From NCBI GenBank assembly GCA_025964675.1, contig JAOPYI010000213.1, positions 1 to 43,572 on the forward strand: a DNA stretch of 43,572 nt, read 5' to 3'. The notes beneath the pieces were generated by a model, which saw only the letters and a program-made list of their open reading frames with translations, did not search any database and had not been told where the DNA came from. This document shows, piece after piece, positions 23,935-42,122 of the stretch. The translations under genes were made by a program, and so were the position numbers. Source of the stretch: Sphaerisporangium sp. Lineage in GTDB: Bacteria > Actinomycetota > Actinomycetes > Streptosporangiales > Streptosporangiaceae. Positions within the stretch are counted from its first letter, which is position 1. Each line of letters starts with the position of its first letter.

Positions 23935-26900
23935 ATGAAGCGCATGGGACTGCGGGAATGGGTCGCGCGCTGGCCGGTGTACCGCCAGCTCCAGGGTGAG
24001 GACGGCAGGAGTGCCGCCGCCCGTTCCCCTCGTACGGAATCCATGGCTCCCCGCACGGCCGAGGCCGACAAGGTGGCCAGGTCGGTGTGCCCGTACTGTG
24101 CGGTCGGCTGCGGACAGCTCGTCTACGTCAAGGACGGCCGGGTCACCCAGATCGAGGGCGACCCCGACTCGCCCATCTCGCGCGGCCGCCTTTGCCCGAA
24201 GGGGTCCGCCAGCAAGCAACTCGTGACCCGCCCCAGCCGGGCCACCGAGGTCCTGTACCGCCGCCCGCACGGCACCGAGTGGGAGCGGCTCGACCTCGAG
24301 CAGGCGATGGACATGATCACCGACCGTGTCGTGGAGACCAGGCGCCGCACGTGGGAGGAGACCAGCGAGGGCCACCTCGTACGCCGCACACTCGGCATCG
24401 CGAGCCTTGGCGGGGCGACGCTCGACAACGAAGAGAACTACCTGATGAAGAAGCTCTACACCGCCATGGGCGCGGTGCAGATCGAGAATCAGGCGCGTAT
24501 TTGACACTCCGCCACCGTCCCCGGTCTGGGGACCAGCTTCGGGCGTGGCGGCGCGACCAACTACCAGCAGGATCTGGTCAACAGTGACTGCGTCGTCATC
24601 CAGGGCTCCAACATGGCCGAATGCCATCCGGTGGGGTTCCAGTGGGTGATGGAGGCCAAGGCACGCGGGGCCAAGGTCTTCCACATCGACCCGCGCTTCA
24701 CCCGCACCAGCGCGATGGCGGACCACTTCGTTCCGATCCGCGCGGGCAGCGACATCGTGCTGCTCGGCGCGCTGATCAACCACGTGCTGGCGGGTGAGCA
24801 CGACTTCAGGGAGTACGTGCTGGCCTACACCAACGCCTCCGTCATCGTGTCGGAGGACTTCCGCGACACCGAGGATCTTGACGGCCTGTTCTCCGGGTTC
24901 GACGGGGAGACGCGCACGTACGACCCGTCGAGCTGGTCCTACCAGGGCCTCGAGGAGGAGGCGGCCGCGGGCCAGAGCGGCGAGCACGCCGCGGAGGGGC
25001 GCCACCACGCGGAGACCGCCAGGGCCGACCAGTACGGCTCCGGCGGCGCGGCCGCCCACCCCCGCCCGCACACCGACGAGACCCTGCGCCACCCTCGCTG
25101 CGTCTACCAGGTGCTCAAGCGGCACTTCGCCCGCTACACGCCCGAGATGGTGGAGGAGGTCTGCGGCATCCCGGCCGAGGACTTCCACCGGCTGGCCGAG
25201 GCCGTCGTCGCCGCGAGCGGCAGGGAGCGCACAACGGCGTGGGTCTACTCGGTCGGCTGGACCCAGCACACCGTCGGCGCGCAGTACATCCGCGCGGCGT
25301 CCATCCTGCAGCTACTGCTGGGCAACATGGGCCGCCCGGGCGGCGGGATCCTGGCGTTGCGCGGCCACGCCAGCATCCAGGGCTCCACCGACATCCCGAC
25401 GCTTTTCAACATCCTGCCCGGCTACCTGCCCATGCCGCACGCCCACTCGACCCGCACCCTCGACGAGTACCTCGACCACGCCGCCGGCGACACCGGCTTC
25501 TGGGGTAACAAGAGGTCCTACATGGTGAGCCTGCTGAAGTCCTGGTGGGGTGACGCGGCGACCGAGGACAACGACTTCTGTTTCGGCTACCTGCCGCGCC
25601 TGACCGGCGACCACGGCACCTACGCCACCGTGCTCGGCCAGATCGACGGCATCGTCAAGGGCTACTTCGTCGTCGGCGAGAACCCGGCGGTCGGCTCGTC
25701 CGGAGGCCGCACGCAGCGGCTGGGCCTCGCCAACCTCGACTGGCTGGTCGTGCGAGACATGACGCTGGTCGAGACCGCCACATTCTGGAAGGACGGCCCC
25801 GAGATAGAGACGGGCGAGACGCGCGCCGAGGACATCGCCACCGAGGTGTTCTTCCTGCCGGCCGCCAGCCACGTCGAGAAAGAGGGCACCTTCACCCAGA
25901 CCCAGCGGCTGCTCCAGTGGCGGGAGAAGGCCGTGGAGCCGCCCGGCGACTGCCGCAGCGACCTGTGGTTCTACTACCACCTGGGCAAGCGGATCAGGCA
26001 GCGGATCTCCGACGACGAGATCGACCGCCCGCTCCGCGACCTCACCTGGGACTACCCAGAACACGGCGAGAACCGCGACCCGTCGGCGGAGGCGGTGCTG
26101 CGCGAGATCAATGGCACCGGGCCCGACGGCCGCACGCTGTCGTCCTACCTCGACCTGAAGCCCGACGGCTCCACGCGCAGCGGCTGCTGGATCTACTGCG
26201 GCGTCTACGCCGGCGAGGTCAACCAGGCCGCGCGCCGCAAGCCGGGGCGGTCGCCCGTCGCCCCCGAGTGGGGCTGGGCGTGGCCGCTCAACCGGCGCAT
26301 CCTGTACAACCGGGCCTCGGCCGACCCCAAGGGCAGGCCGTGGAGCGAGCGCAAGGCGCATATCTGGTGGGACGCCGACAAGGGGGAGTGGACAGGTGCG
26401 GACGTGCCCGACTTCGAGAAGGACAAGCCGCCGGACTACCGGCCGCCGCCCGGCGCGACCGCCCAGGCCGCGCTGTCGGGCACCGACGCGTTCATCATGC
26501 AGGCCGACGGCAAGGGCTGGCTGTTCGCCCCGGCCGGGCTTGCCGACGGGCCGCTGCCCGCGCACTACGAGCCGCACGAGTCACCGCTGCCCAACATCAT
26601 GTACGGCCAGCGGGCCAACCCGGCGCGCAAGGTCTACAACCGCGCCGAGTCGCCGTACAACCCGGCGGGCTCGCCTCGCTTCCCGTACGTGCTCACCACC
26701 TACCGCCTCACCGAGCACCACACCGCGGGCGGCATGAGCAGGACCCTGCCGTACCTCGCCGAGCTGCAGCCGGAGATGTTCTGCGAGGTCTCGCCCGAGC
26801 TGGCCGCCGAGCGCGGGCTGGTCAACGGAGGGTGGGCGACGATCGTGACGAGCCGGGCGGCCATAGAGGCCCGCGTGCTGGTCAGCGAGCGGATACGACC

Positions 26901-30015: not shown

Positions 30016-31296
30016 GTGGTCGACCTTCGCAGGAACGTGCCGCGCACCGACGCCGTGCTGGCCGATCCCCGGCTGGTCACCGCCGCCGAGCGGCTCGGCA
30101 GGCCGCTGGTCAAGGCCGCCGTCAACCAGGCCCAGGAGCGCGCCAGGGCGGGCGCCATCGCGCCCGCGCAGGTCGCCGAGTCCGTACTGGAGGCGCTGCG
30201 CGCGCTCGGACCGCTGCGCCGGGTCATCAACGCGACCGGCGTGCTTCTGCACACCAACCTCGGCCGGGCGCCGCTGTCCGCCTCCGCCATCCGGGCTGTC
30301 ACCACCGCCGCCGGGCCCACCGACGTGGAGTTCGACCTGGAAACCGGCACCCGAGGGCGCCGGGGGCGCGGCGCGATGGCCGCCCTCGCCGCGGCCGTGC
30401 CCGCGGCCGAGGCCGTCCACGTCGTCAACAACAACGCGGCGGCGCTCGTGCTCGCCGCCACGGCCCTGGCCTCGGGACGGGAGATCGTCATCAGCCGGGG
30501 CGAGCTGGTCGAGATCGGCGACGGCTTCCGCATCCCCGACCTGCTGGTCTCTACCGGTGCGCGGCTACGTGAGGTCGGCACCACAAACCGCACCCACCTG
30601 TCCGACTACGCCGACGCCATCGGGCCTGGCACCGGCTTCGTGCTCAAGGTTCACCCGTCCAACTTCCGCGTCGAGGGGTTCACCGGGGCCGTCGAGGTCG
30701 ATGAGCTCGCCGGGCTCGGGGTGCCCGTGGTCGTCGACATAGGCTCGGGGCTGCTGGAGCGTGAGCCGTCACTGCCCGGCGAGCCGGCCGCCGCCGACGT
30801 GCTGCGCGCGGGCGCGGACCTTGTCACCGCCAGCGGTGACAAGCTCCTCGGCGGCCCGCAGGCCGGGCTTCTGCTCGGACGCCGCGACATCGTCGAGCGG
30901 CTCAGGCGCCACCCGCTGGCCAGGGCCCTGCGGGTGGACAAGCTGACTCTCGCCGCGCTGGAGGCGACGTTGCGCGATCCGGCGCCGCCGGTCGTCTCGG
31001 CCCTGCACGCCGACCCCGCGCTGCTCGCCAAGCGCGCCGAGACGATCGCCGCCACGCTGCGGCTGGCAGGCGTCGACGCTGCGGCCGTGCCGAGCCTCGC
31101 CACGGTCGGCGGCGGCGGCGCCCCGGGCGTCACCCTGCCCAGCGCCGCGGTCAGCCTCCCGTTCGGGCTGGCCGGACGGCTGCGCTCCCATGAGCCCGCC
31201 GTCGTCGGCCGGATCGAGAACGACCGCCTTCTGCTGGACCTGCGCGCCGTCCCACCGGAGGAGGACGGAGAACTGCTGCGGACGGTGACCGGGTGA
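30016..31296 (+). CDS. selA: L-seryl-tRNA(Sec) selenium transferase
   Basis: The 426-residue PLP enzyme converts Ser-tRNA(Sec) to Sec-tRNA(Sec). Conserved segments are RRVINATGVLLHTNLGRAPLS, HVVNNNAAALVLAA, GDGFRIPDLL, EVGTTNRTHLSDYADAI, KVHPSNFRVEGFTG and the PLP-lysine loop TASGDKLLGGPQAG (Lys276). I start it at GTG 30016 because the frame upstream runs through tRNA-Sec. No strong ribosome site is visible there. It is shorter than E. coli SelA at the N-terminus, as usual in actinobacteria. The stop overlaps the start of the selB remnant (GTGA). Confidence 0.93.
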   Translation: MVDLRRNVPRTDAVLADPRLVTAAERLGRPLVKAAVNQAQERARAGAIAPAQVAESVLEALRALGPLRRVINATGVLLHTNLGRAPLSASAIRAVTTAAGPTDVEFDLETGTRGRRGRGAMAALAAAVPAAEAVHVVNNNAAALVLAATALASGREIVISRGELVEIGDGFRIPDLLVSTGARLREVGTTNRTHLSDYADAIGPGTGFVLKVHPSNFRVEGFTGAVEVDELAGLGVPVVVDIGSGLLEREPSLPGEPAAADVLRAGADLVTASGDKLLGGPQAGLLLGRRDIVERLRRHPLARALRVDKLTLAALEATLRDPAPPVVSALHADPALLAKRAETIAATLRLAGVDAAAVPSLATVGGGGAPGVTLPSAAVSLPFGLAGRLRSHEPAVVGRIENDRLLLDLRAVPPEEDGELLRTVTG

Positions 31297-31593
31297 AGCA
31301 TCTCGTGGCCACTGCCGGGCATGTCCATCACGGCAAGCCGACCCTCGTACGGGCGCTGACCGGGATGGAGCCCGACAGGCTCGCCGTTCCTCAGGACGGC
31401 CGAGCTGGCAGCCATGGGCGTGGTCCCGCCGGACGGCCCGGTCGCCGGCGACCGGCACGCCGACCGGGCGCACTGGGCCGCCCTCCCCGCACGCCTGGCC
31501 GACGTGGTCCGCGAGCATGACACGGCTGGGGGCCGCTGCCTCCGCGCGTCCGTTTTCGCGGGAGCTCAGCCCTCAGAAATGCCCTCGCACTGA
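31293..31593 (+). pseudogene. selB: Gutted selB (selenocysteine-specific elongation factor) remnant
   Basis: The first 31 codons (31293-31385) match the start of SelB: ATAGHVHHGKPTLVRALTGM then EPDRLA. The invariant P-loop GHVDHGK(S/T)T has two changes, D to H and S/T to P. The G2-G5 motifs and EF-Tu-like domains are missing. After one extra base the frame continues from 31387 as FLRTAELAAMGVVPPDGPVA...RAHWAALPARLADVVREH, which resembles the SelB segment just after the EF-Tu-like domains. It ends at TGA 31591-31593 without the winged-helix mRNA-binding domains. Intact SelB is about 580-620 residues; only about 300 bp remain. It overlaps the selA stop exactly where an intact selB would begin. 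Confidence 0.85.
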
Positions 31594-39240: not shown

Positions 39241-41634
39241 TCAGATGGGCGGCCGCGGCACACCGCGCATGGCGTCCCACACCCGTGAAGGCGTGAGAGG
39301 CATGTCGGCGTGGCGGATCCCGAACGGCTTGAGCGCGTCGAGGACCGCGTTGACGATCGCCGGCGGGGAGCCCACCGTCGCCGACTCGCCGACGCCCTTG
39401 GCGCCGATCGGATGATGGGGAGAGGGGGTCACGGTGAACCCCGTCTCCCAGTCGGGCACCTCAAGCGAGGTCGGGATGAGGTAGTCCATCAGCGATCCGC
39501 CCAGGCAGTTGCCGTCCTCGTCGAAGGCGATCATCTCCATCAGCGCCATGCCGACGCCGTCGGTCAGGCCGCCGTGCACCTGACCCTCGATGATCATCGG
39601 GTTGATCCGGGTGCCGCAGTCGTCGACCGCGATGAATCGCCGCACCTTGACCTGGGCGGTTCCCGGGTCGATGTCGACCACGCAGATGTACGCGCCGTGC
39701 GGGTAGGTGAGGTTCTCCGGGTTGTAGCAGATCTGCGCCTCCAGTCCGCCCTCGACGCCCTCCGGGAGGTCTCCCGCGCCGTGCGCCCTCATCGCGATGT
39801 CCTGGATCGTGACGCACTTCGCCGGGTCGCCCTTGACGTGGAACGATCCCTTCTCCCACTCCAGGTCCGCGACCGACACCTCGAGCATCCCCGAGGCGAT
39901 GAGGCGCGCCTTGTCGCGCACCTTGCGGGCCACCAGGGCAGCCGCCGCGCCGGACACCGGCGTGGACCGGCTGCCGTAGGTGCCGAGGCCGAAGGGCGTC
40001 TGGTCGGTGTCGCCGTGCACGACGTCGATGTCGGCGGGTGGGATGCCGATCTCCTCGGCGACGATCTGCGCGAAGGTGGTCTCGTGCCCCTGGCCCTGGC
40101 TCTGCACCGACAGGCGCACGACGGCCTTGCCGGTCGGGTGGACGCGCAGCTCGCACCCGTCGGCCATGCCGAGGCCCAGGATGTCCATGTCCTTGCGCGG
40201 GCCGGCGCCGACCGCCTCGGTGAAGAACGAGACGCCGATCCCCATCAGCTCGCCCTGGGCACGCCTTCGGGCCTGCTCCTCGCGCAGTTCGTCGTACCCG
40301 GCGATCTCCATGGCCTTGCGCATGGTCGGCTCGTAGTCGCCCGAGTCGTACACCCAGCCGGTCTGCGTGCGGTACGGGAACTGGTCCGGCTGGATGAAGT
40401 TCTTGATCCGCAGCTCGATGGGATCCATCTGGAGCTCGTACGCCAGGCAGTCGACGATGCGCTCGATGAGGTACACGGCCTCGGTGATCCGGAAGGAGCA
40501 CGCGTAGGCGACGCCGCCGGGCGCCTTGTTGGTGAAGACGGCCGTCATCTTGCAGTACGCCGCCTGAAGGTCGTAGCTTCCGGTGAACACGCCGAAGAAG
40601 CCGGCGGGGTACTTCACCGGCGCGGCGACGCCGTTGAAGGCGCCGTGGTCGGCGAGCACGTTGGTGCGCACGGCGAGGATCCTGCCGTCCCTGGTCGCCG
40701 CGATCTCGCCGCGCATGATGTAGTCACGCGCGAACCCGGTGCTGGTGAGGTTCTCCGAGCGGTCCTCCATCCATTTCACCGGCTTGCCGGTGACGATCGA
40801 CCCCACGATCGCGCAGACGTACCCGGGATAAATGGGGACCTTGCCGCCGAAGCCGCCGCCGAGGTCGGGGGAGATGACCCGGATCTTGTGCTCGGGAAGG
40901 CCCGCCACGATGGCGTACAACGTCCGGTGGGCGTGCGGCGCCTGGCTCGTGGACCACAGCGTCAGCCTGCCCTCGACGCGGTCGTAGTCGGCAACGCACC
41001 CGCAGGTCTCCATCGGGGCGGGGTGCACGCGGGGGTAGACGATGTCCTCGCTGACGACGACGTCTGCCGAGGCGAACACCGCCTCGGTGGCCTCCGCGTC
41101 GCCGGTCTCCCAGTCGAAGCAGTGGTTGTTCTGCTTGCCCTCCAGGTCGTCGCGGATGACGGGCGCGGCGGGGTCCAGGGCCTTGCGCACGTCGATCACC
41201 GGCTCGAGGACGTCGTACTCGACGTCGATCAACTCCAGGGCGTCGCGAGCCGCGTAGCGGTCCTCGGCCACGACGAAAGCGACCTCCTGCCCCTGGAAGC
41301 GCACCTTGTCCGTGGCCAGCACGGCTTGCACGTCGCCCGACAGCGTGGGCATCCAGGCCAGCCCCTTCTCGGCCAGCGCGGCGCCGGTGACGACCGCCTT
41401 GACCTTCGGGTGTGCCTCGGCTGCGCTGGTGTCGATGCTCACGATCCGGGCGTGCGCGACCGGGGAGCGCAGGACGGCCATGTGCAGCATGCCGGGCAGT
41501 TGCACGTCGTCGCAGTACCGGCCCATGCCGCGGATGAAGCGGGGGTCCTCCTTGCGAAGCATCCGGCCGTGGCCGATCGGCTTTTGGTCGTTGTCCTCGA
41601 AACCGTCGAGGGGACGGTGCCCGACCGTGGTCAT
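39241..41634 (-). CDS. coxL: Aerobic carbon monoxide dehydrogenase large subunit (form I)
   Basis: The 797-residue molybdenum hydroxylase subunit oxidises CO with water to CO2. The active-site loop AYACSFR (Cys379) matches the form I signature AYXCSFR, which marks true CO dehydrogenases; the Cys binds Cu in the Mo-S-Cu centre. Other Mo-cofactor motifs are DLGGGFGGKVPIYP, QSQGQGHETTFAQ, GTYGSRSTPVSGAA and the catalytic Glu region KGVGESATVGSPP. ATG 41634 overlaps the coxS stop by 4 bp. Length is normal. Confidence 0.97.
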   Translation of the reverse strand: MTTVGHRPLDGFEDNDQKPIGHGRMLRKEDPRFIRGMGRYCDDVQLPGMLHMAVLRSPVAHARIVSIDTSAAEAHPKVKAVVTGAALAEKGLAWMPTLSGDVQAVLATDKVRFQGQEVAFVVAEDRYAARDALELIDVEYDVLEPVIDVRKALDPAAPVIRDDLEGKQNNHCFDWETGDAEATEAVFASADVVVSEDIVYPRVHPAPMETCGCVADYDRVEGRLTLWSTSQAPHAHRTLYAIVAGLPEHKIRVISPDLGGGFGGKVPIYPGYVCAIVGSIVTGKPVKWMEDRSENLTSTGFARDYIMRGEIAATRDGRILAVRTNVLADHGAFNGVAAPVKYPAGFFGVFTGSYDLQAAYCKMTAVFTNKAPGGVAYACSFRITEAVYLIERIVDCLAYELQMDPIELRIKNFIQPDQFPYRTQTGWVYDSGDYEPTMRKAMEIAGYDELREEQARRRAQGELMGIGVSFFTEAVGAGPRKDMDILGLGMADGCELRVHPTGKAVVRLSVQSQGQGHETTFAQIVAEEIGIPPADIDVVHGDTDQTPFGLGTYGSRSTPVSGAAAALVARKVRDKARLIASGMLEVSVADLEWEKGSFHVKGDPAKCVTIQDIAMRAHGAGDLPEGVEGGLEAQICYNPENLTYPHGAYICVVDIDPGTAQVKVRRFIAVDDCGTRINPMIIEGQVHGGLTDGVGMALMEMIAFDEDGNCLGGSLMDYLIPTSLEVPDWETGFTVTPSPHHPIGAKGVGESATVGSPPAIVNAVLDALKPFGIRHADMPLTPSRVWDAMRGVPRPPI

Positions 41635-42122
41635 GACATGCTCCCGGTGGTCTCGGAGTCCGCCGCCTCGCGGGCGGCGGCCCACCGCACGGAACGGACG
41701 ATGGTCGCGTAACCGGTGCAGCGGCAGATCTGGCCGGAGATCGCCTCGCGGATCTCCGCCTCCGACGGGCTCGGGTTGCGGTCGAGAAGGGCCCGCGCCG
41801 TCATCAACATGCCCGGCGTGCAGAAGCCGCACTGCAGCCCGTGGCACTCCATGAATCCCTGCTGGACCGGATCCAGTTCGCCGTCGCGTTCCAGCCCCTC
41901 CACCGTGCGGACCTCGTGGCCGCCGGCCATCGCCGCGAGGACCGTGCACGACTTGACCGGCTCGCCGTCGAGCCACACCACGCAGGTGCCGCAGTTGCTC
42001 GTGTCGCAGCCCCAGTGGGTGCCCGTCAGGCTGAGGTGGTCGCGCAGGAAGTGCACCAGAAGCAGGCGGCCCTCGATCTCGCGGGTGATCTCCTCGCCGT
42101 TCACGGTCATCGAAACCCGCAT
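41631..42122 (-). CDS. coxS: Aerobic carbon monoxide dehydrogenase small (2Fe-2S) subunit
   Basis: The 163-residue electron-transfer subunit has a plant-type ferredoxin cluster (GCDTSNCGTCVV...SC) and a second four-helix cluster (CGFCTPGM...CRCTGY). This is the standard layout of molybdenum hydroxylase small subunits. ATG 42122 begins 1 bp after the coxM stop. Confidence 0.97.
   Translation of the reverse strand: MRVSMTVNGEEITREIEGRLLLVHFLRDHLSLTGTHWGCDTSNCGTCVVWLDGEPVKSCTVLAAMAGGHEVRTVEGLERDGELDPVQQGFMECHGLQCGFCTPGMLMTARALLDRNPSPSEAEIREAISGQICRCTGYATIVRSVRWAAAREAADSETTGSMS

Follow-up and report, generated by a model that had tools for sequence, protein, structure and literature searches.

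A probably imported SelB beside a candidate selenoprotein gene, and a decayed selB beside selA, in Sphaerisporangium sp.

Results

Sec genes of the window and the remains of selB

The window analysed here is a stretch of 43,572 nucleotides, contig C25 of a draft genome of Sphaerisporangium sp. (7.77 Mb, 313 contigs). It carries fdhA with an in-frame UGA, selD, tRNA-Sec, selA and the remains of selB (Table 1). Profile and tRNA searches bear out the earlier note on this DNA in that tRNA-Sec, selA and selD are intact, and fdhA with its UGA looks intact too. The fdhA open reading frames flanking the UGA lie in one frame and match NF041513 at positions 2–185 before and 223–1066 after it, of 1067. 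All 36 named relatives that align here without gaps have TGA at the site, and in 30 of these 36 GGTC follows 12–30 nt past the TGA. The stretch of 60 nt from this UGA folds no better than shuffled sequences do (z –0.58; 53/200 shuffles as good). Among named matches, S. fuscum has the selA closest to that of the window (86%). Within the genus, selA scores over the cut-off in four of 11 genomes, this one counted; a comparison of the locus in relatives, proposed earlier, reveals that the other three keep a SelB open frame of 616–665 codons beside selA.

Table 1 Features of the window (contig C25) and of contig C163.
Feature	Contig	Position	Strand	Evidence and remarks
fdhA with in-frame UGA at 24502–24504	C25	23956..27129	+	NF041513; 5' limit approximate (first profile-matching residues)
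fdhA candidate SECIS apical hairpin GTCCCC[GGTCT]GGGGAC	C25	24517..24533	+	
selD, full length	C25	28886..29866	-	TIGR00476 375 bits, cut-off 125
tRNA-Sec (selC)	C25	29886..29979	+	ARAGORN; Rfam RF01852 73.3 bits
selA, full length	C25	30016..31296	+	TIGR00474 446 bits, cut-off 268
selB relic, first piece	C25	31293..31385	+	codons 1–31, VKHLVATAGHVHHGKPTLVRALTGMEPDRLA; TIGR00475 residues 4–30 only
selB relic, second piece	C25	31387..31515	+	about 43 internal codons, other frame, begins FLRTAELAAMGVVPPDGPVAGDRHADRAHWAALPARLA
SPUG membrane-protein gene, in-frame UGA at codon 27	C163	41909-42613	-	
Cys-rich small secreted protein, twin-arginine	C163	42682-43056	-	
MauD/thioredoxin-like gene with CETC	C163	43111-43662	-	
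MauE	C163	43659-44225	-	PF07291 52.2 bits, cut-off 27
selB, 587 aa, no stops	C163	44325-46088	-	TIGR00475 266.1 bits, cut-off 242.25

The selB gene beside selA starts at 31293, in a GTGA overlap with the selA stop. Judged by GTPase, domain 2 and winged helices it is not a complete SelB, being two short pieces in different frames. The first piece scores 27.3 bits with TIGR00475 against a cut-off of 242.25, and its frame stays open for 75 codons until a stop. Its P-loop reads GHVHHGKP instead of GHVDHGKS, with D changed to H and S/T to P. Reading of the codons together with the TIGR00475 match thus bears out the earlier description of a selB gutted to about 31 N-terminal codons with these two changes, and the out-of-frame junction to a short internal fragment is likewise found, the second piece lying in the next frame. 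Compared to the operon selB of S. fuscum, the first piece is identical at 83/95 nt and the second at 82/114 nt; the second piece agrees with S. rufum selB at 84/114 nt (117-nt match at 75%), and over the same internal stretch the S. fuscum and S. rufum genes agree at 86/114 nt. The internal piece therefore diverges about as much as these two genes do from each other, and identity alone is no proof of fast decay. Such decay is shown instead by the shifted frame, the deletions and the altered P-loop. The distance from the start to the internal piece is 94 nt in the relic and 1122 nt in S. fuscum selB, which implies that about 1.03 kb has been lost between the pieces. Also absent is the 3' part, which would encode the winged helices, so that comparison with S. 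fuscum selB upholds the claim that the EF-Tu-like and winged-helix domains are gone from the locus. The relic shares more with S. fuscum selB (74/85 nt) than with the selB on contig C163 (65/85 nt), which identifies it as the native gene.

A complete SelB of another lineage on contig C163

A second selB elsewhere in the genome had been among the possibilities raised earlier, and a whole-genome search with TIGR00475 reveals a full-length SelB on contig C163. The protein scores over the cut-offs for PF00009 (EF-Tu GTPase), PF03144 (domain 2) and PF09107 (SelB winged helix), and its motifs GHVDHGKS and DVPGHE are intact. The other TIGR00475 matches in the genome were set aside by score as other translation GTPases. 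A search of the same genome with the C-terminal 243 residues of the C163 SelB finds no further copy, which leaves it as the only complete SelB found. Since this second selB exists, Sec decoding has probably not been lost, and the earlier suggestion that Sec use is being lost is not favoured.

The C163 SelB is 55–61% identical to its best-matching operon SelBs. A quick tree, built from 78 SelBs with SH-aLRT support, places it with the SelBs of genomes G194, G301, G036 and G165 and of N. gerenzanensis (SH-aLRT 99), with a support of 93 for the five alone, N. gerenzanensis excluded. The S. fuscum and S. rufum SelBs are placed apart from this group. A recent duplication of the native selB was rejected, as the C163 SelB belongs to another lineage in this tree. 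The SelB of G007, a genome of the same genus, sits with Herbidospora, and a SelB from a gene cluster in G221 that resembles the one described below also lies outside the C163 group; neither the cluster nor the genus thus corresponds to one SelB lineage.

The C163 selB lies in an insertion of about 5 kb relative to the genus

The genes flanking the C163 selB adjoin each other in 10 of 10 other genomes of the genus. DNA similarity to the genus ends at C163:40962-41162 and resumes at 46163-46195, varying by genome, which places an insertion of about 5 kb at approximately C163:41122-46164. The gap between the similar blocks is 3–1036 bp in the other genomes of the genus (54 bp in G006). As the C163 flanks are collinear with the genus, contamination is unlikely.

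The operon order in the insertion is selB, MauE, the MauD-like gene, the gene for the Cys-rich secreted protein and a membrane-protein gene with an in-frame UGA. We call the latter SPUG, a name given here from its motif. Its open reading frame has a TTG start behind GGGGGGAGGA. MADH light chain was tried and rejected as the identity of the Cys-rich protein, which has no MADH light chain match in the PDB (E up to 10) or Pfam (E up to 0.5). Convergent to the UGA gene, the insertion also holds a lipoprotein-like ORF (LAAC, ending in ISFFGGAC; C163 about 41300-41902, + strand), for which DNA similarity shows no counterpart in the genus relatives. Upstream of the C163 selB and outside the insertion, an EF-G-like GTPase of 795 aa (C163:48080-50467, - strand) stands beside a GHL10 gene; it is matched in nine of ten genus regions, the remaining one being the shorter stretch of G008.

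A membrane-protein family with a conserved in-frame UGA

Translated with Cys for the UGA, the SPUG protein was searched against 345 genomes of the order. It has 27 matches in 24 genomes, and 25 of these matches contain exactly one TGA and no other stop. The TGA is at one aligned site in 25 of 25 order genes that cover it, the C163 gene included, within a motif S-x-UGA-G-x-S that is held down to 26% identity. The residues adjoining the UGA on both sides are conserved, with no gaps, in the 25 genes. An even draw of 396 genomes across the phylum adds 15 matches, namely nine with TGA, five with TGC in the motif WSPCG and one partial; of the 14 genes outside the order that cover the site, nine thus have UGA and five have Cys. 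Excluded before these counts were L174 (G003; a C-terminal match only, with TGA and TAG upstream), L176 (a second, partial copy in G221), L213 (partial) and L214 (a second match in the same genome as the C163 gene, taken as chance). In G221, what appears to be a second tRNA-Sec (70 bits) lies immediately upstream of the partial second copy (L188:6894-7482); recombination at a tRNA-Sec gene may have left this arrangement as a scar.

In eight of eight SPUG pairs dN is lower than dS on both sides of the UGA, one of the pairs being of unequal lengths. Seven positions are invariant across Sec and Cys members: U/C27, G28, S30, Q116, G135, G139 and T144. The near-duplicates L156 and L175 are excluded from the alignment, A6.

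Hairpins downstream of the SPUG UGA

In the main subgroup and in the most distant members, a hairpin loop lies 36 nt downstream, counted from the first UGA base. The hairpin of the C163 gene is CCCCUG[GUC]CAGGGG, and those of distant genes are CCCCCGUG[GUC]CACGGGGG, CCCCCAUG[GUG]CAUGGGGG and CCCCGCUC[GGG]GAGCGGGG. Covariation was analysed in a set (A2) of 20 genes, 13 of 25 from the order and seven of nine from the phylum sample, picked where the hairpin had already been seen; this set contains 12 two-sided changes, and its covariation score is reached by 0 of 500 shuffles, with the count of pairs with two-sided changes falling within the shuffle range (115/500). Two A2 genes with extra codons (hairpin at +57 and +60) were aligned on their VQG codons. 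Left out were L199 and L201, with the hairpin not at that site, and the 12 genes of a second subgroup, counted apart, which have another hairpin closer to the UGA with changes not beyond those of shuffles (195/500).

A stem of at least 6 at +36 is present in 14 of 34 UGA genes vs 0 of 5 Cys genes, the latter scored at fixed positions and not by gapped alignment of the five Cys windows. Anywhere from +15 to +61, such stems are present in 27 of 34 UGA genes and also in two of five Cys genes, which indicates that chance stems arise in G+C-rich DNA. Folding of 60 nt past the SPUG UGA is no better than that of shuffles (z 0.44). A GGUC-type loop is common to the fdhA and SPUG hairpins, so that one SelB could serve both. 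The genes L160 and L161 have 7–8 extra codons between the UGA and the hairpin, with hairpin and LVQG codons kept, which suggests that the LVQG residues may be held by the RNA rather than by the protein.

Co-occurrence and linkage with Sec genes

In the order, selA is matched at E 1e-95 or better in 22 of 23 genomes with the UGA gene, compared to 211 of 345 genomes over the cut-off overall (Fisher p 2e-4, taking the 22 as over cut-off). The same 22 genomes have a tRNA-Sec at 73 bits or more and a SelB. In the phylum sample, selA is found in nine of nine UGA genomes vs one of five Cys genomes (Fisher p 0.005). The best tRNA-Sec matches in the nine UGA genomes reach 58.7 bits or more; among the Cys genomes, the one with selA (G444) has a match of 66.2 bits and the four without selA have matches of 42.6–50.9 bits. 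G334 has a UGA gene and neither selA nor SelB, its best tRNA-Sec match scoring an unconvincing 49.4 bits, in an assembly that is 92% complete. Its SPUG member (L171, C42:33262-33732) is either a stranded gene or one whose Sec genes are missing from the assembly. In G189 and G193 there are three tRNA-Sec genes each over the cut-off.

We examined the neighbourhoods of 20 of the 24 UGA genes outside the genome of the window. In G036, G165, G301 and G221, selA, selD, selB and tRNA-Sec adjoin the SPUG cluster. In G194, selB, selD and tRNA-Sec do so, and the sole SelB of the genome lies in the cluster; the selA locus examined in G194 is on a different contig, where none of selB, selD and tRNA-Sec stands beside selA. 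tRNA-Sec adjoins the cluster in G189 and G193, the latter also with a 26-residue selD match. Matches of MauE, MauD and MauA type occur together in 12 of 20 neighbourhoods, the distant ones giving weak matches; seven of the 20 lack all three types. Between selD and selB of the G036 cluster lies an extra, weak tRNA-Sec (G036:C8:316195-316285, 52.8 bits).

A plasmid collection contributes one relative, a linear Embleya record of 5.7 Mb typed as a mobilizable plasmid. It holds a set of selA, selB, selD, tRNA-Sec, Mau-type genes and a UGA gene, with no annotated feature there. Among 82 sources scanned, UGA members lie near selA in three, S. tibetensis, a Frankiaceae MAG and Pedococcus.

Discussion

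What the SPUG protein does can be approached through its neighbours and its relatives. No Pfam or NCBIfam model matches the C163 protein, and a profile of the SPUG family matches no chain in the PDB. DsbD_TM (PF02683) is matched by three of 37 SPUG members (best E 3.7e-6), the C163 protein not being among them, and NCBIfam searches of the 37 members yield single-member matches only, at E 0.005 or worse. SPUG resembles the CcdA/DsbD transmembrane domain in being a small membrane protein with a Cys (in SPUG, presumably Sec) in the region of the first membrane helix. It differs from it in that the C163 protein lacks a PF02683 match and in that U/C27 is the sole invariant Cys-type residue of SPUG. 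The likeness to mau maturation genes lies in the MauE of C163, matched by PF07291; the difference lies in the Cys-rich protein, which is not recognizable as a MADH light chain in Pfam or the PDB. The gene order of MauE, MauD-like and small Cys-rich protein on C163 presumably resembles that of mau clusters. Given MauE, a thioredoxin-like membrane protein and a secreted Cys-rich protein as neighbours, a role in disulfide handling appears likeliest for SPUG.

Known selenoproteins offer one comparison, TsoB (NF045694), which is rhodanese/DsbD fusion-like and, in the tabulated families of PMC13188914, is the prokaryotic selenoprotein family whose name contains DsbD. As given there, TsoB differs from SPUG in having the motif UxxxxU with two Sec. 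NF045694 is absent among the NCBIfam matches of the 37 SPUG members at E up to 0.1. The SPUG family is absent from the selenoprotein list of 2022 as set out in its Table 1 (PMC9312934), from the nine new deep-Sep families presented in PMC12013277 and from the 119 families in Table 1 of a 2026 review (PMC13188914). By these tables and searches of open-access PMC papers, SPUG looks like an unlisted selenoprotein family.

We consider it very likely that the C163 SelB was imported and made the operonic selB redundant, and that the insertion brought with it a likely selenoprotein, SPUG. The insertion of about 5 kb would have been gained with selB and the MauE, MauD-like, Cys-rich and SPUG genes, and the operonic selB, redundant through the imported SelB, would have decayed in place, the relic itself representing the ordinary decay of a gene turned redundant. 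SelA, SelD and tRNA-Sec of the window would make Sec-tRNA-Sec, which the imported SelB would deliver to UGA codons that precede a hairpin with a GGUC-type loop, both in fdhA and in SPUG. SPUG, most likely a selenoprotein and remotely CcdA/DsbD-like, may join MauE and the MauD-like protein in handling the disulfides of the secreted Cys-rich protein. A partial parallel is found in Y. pestis CO92 and Mediaevalis, in which, according to the account in PMC1273633, selB is a pseudogene and selA, selC, selD and a UGA-containing fdh remain. There selB carries a frameshift, told as loss of Sec decoding (PMC1273633); the window relic differs in its large deletions and in the intact SelB of another lineage elsewhere in the genome.

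Whether the imported SelB also decodes fdhA is where the main competing explanation departs. The two SelB lineages differ, as the 55–61% identity to the best operon SelBs indicates, and the imported protein might serve SPUG only, so that full FdhA would no longer be made and Sec for formate oxidation would be on its way out. We regard this as unlikely: fdhA reads open before as well as after the UGA and fits its profile along its length, the GGUC loop of its hairpin is common in relatives and recurs after the SPUG UGA, and G194 likewise has its sole SelB in the cluster. Import itself could be questioned, as an empty site alone cannot separate one insertion from ten losses, and the C163 SelB might be an old second copy that was lost in the ten other genus members. 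This would require ten parallel losses, each leaving the flanking genes adjoining, and the C163 SelB groups with those of clusters in other genera, all of which makes an old copy quite improbable.

The UGA in SPUG could also specify another amino acid, or end a short leader before a separate gene, and the UGA gene of G334, with no detectable Sec genes, would fit such a reading. The conservation of the ungapped flanking residues in 25 genes, the Cys in the same motif of five relatives, the tracking of selA by the UGA and the covarying hairpin of the main subgroup argue against it, and we find it very improbable. The gap in the window selB could, finally, be an artefact of assembly or sequencing in a draft of 313 contigs, with a complete operonic selB in existence. 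The earlier note had allowed for an assembly collapse; the sequences at hand render it highly improbable, as the missing part of selB is on no other contig, the remaining P-loop codons are changed non-synonymously (D to H, S/T to P) and the second piece of the relic is out of frame. The same note held that a second full-length selB would make the locus only a local relic. The second gene is there, and to this extent the statement stands, but it undersells the finding, as that gene is of another lineage, lies in an insertion and is linked to a candidate unlisted selenoprotein.

A mobile and partly self-contained Sec module is probably present in Actinomycetota. The module would consist of a Sec-containing, CcdA-like membrane protein and its Mau-type disulfide partners; selB would move along with them, joined in some genomes by selA, selC and selD. 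Here its SelB would now decode the resident fdhA, the resident selB having rotted.

The interesting part is the imported SelB with its apparent unlisted selenoprotein, rather than the relic. Apparent membrane selenoproteins with Cys counterparts occur across the phylum, and in the standard code translation of their genes would end after about 26 codons. Formate dehydrogenase may not be the only protein that keeps Sec decoding in actinomycetes. The locus appears to be a case in which a factor from another lineage has replaced a dedicated translation factor, and the old copy can still be read next to selA. Two questions become accessible to test: whether a single SelB can serve the hairpins of two lineages, and whether Sec genes may spread together with a client gene that depends on them.
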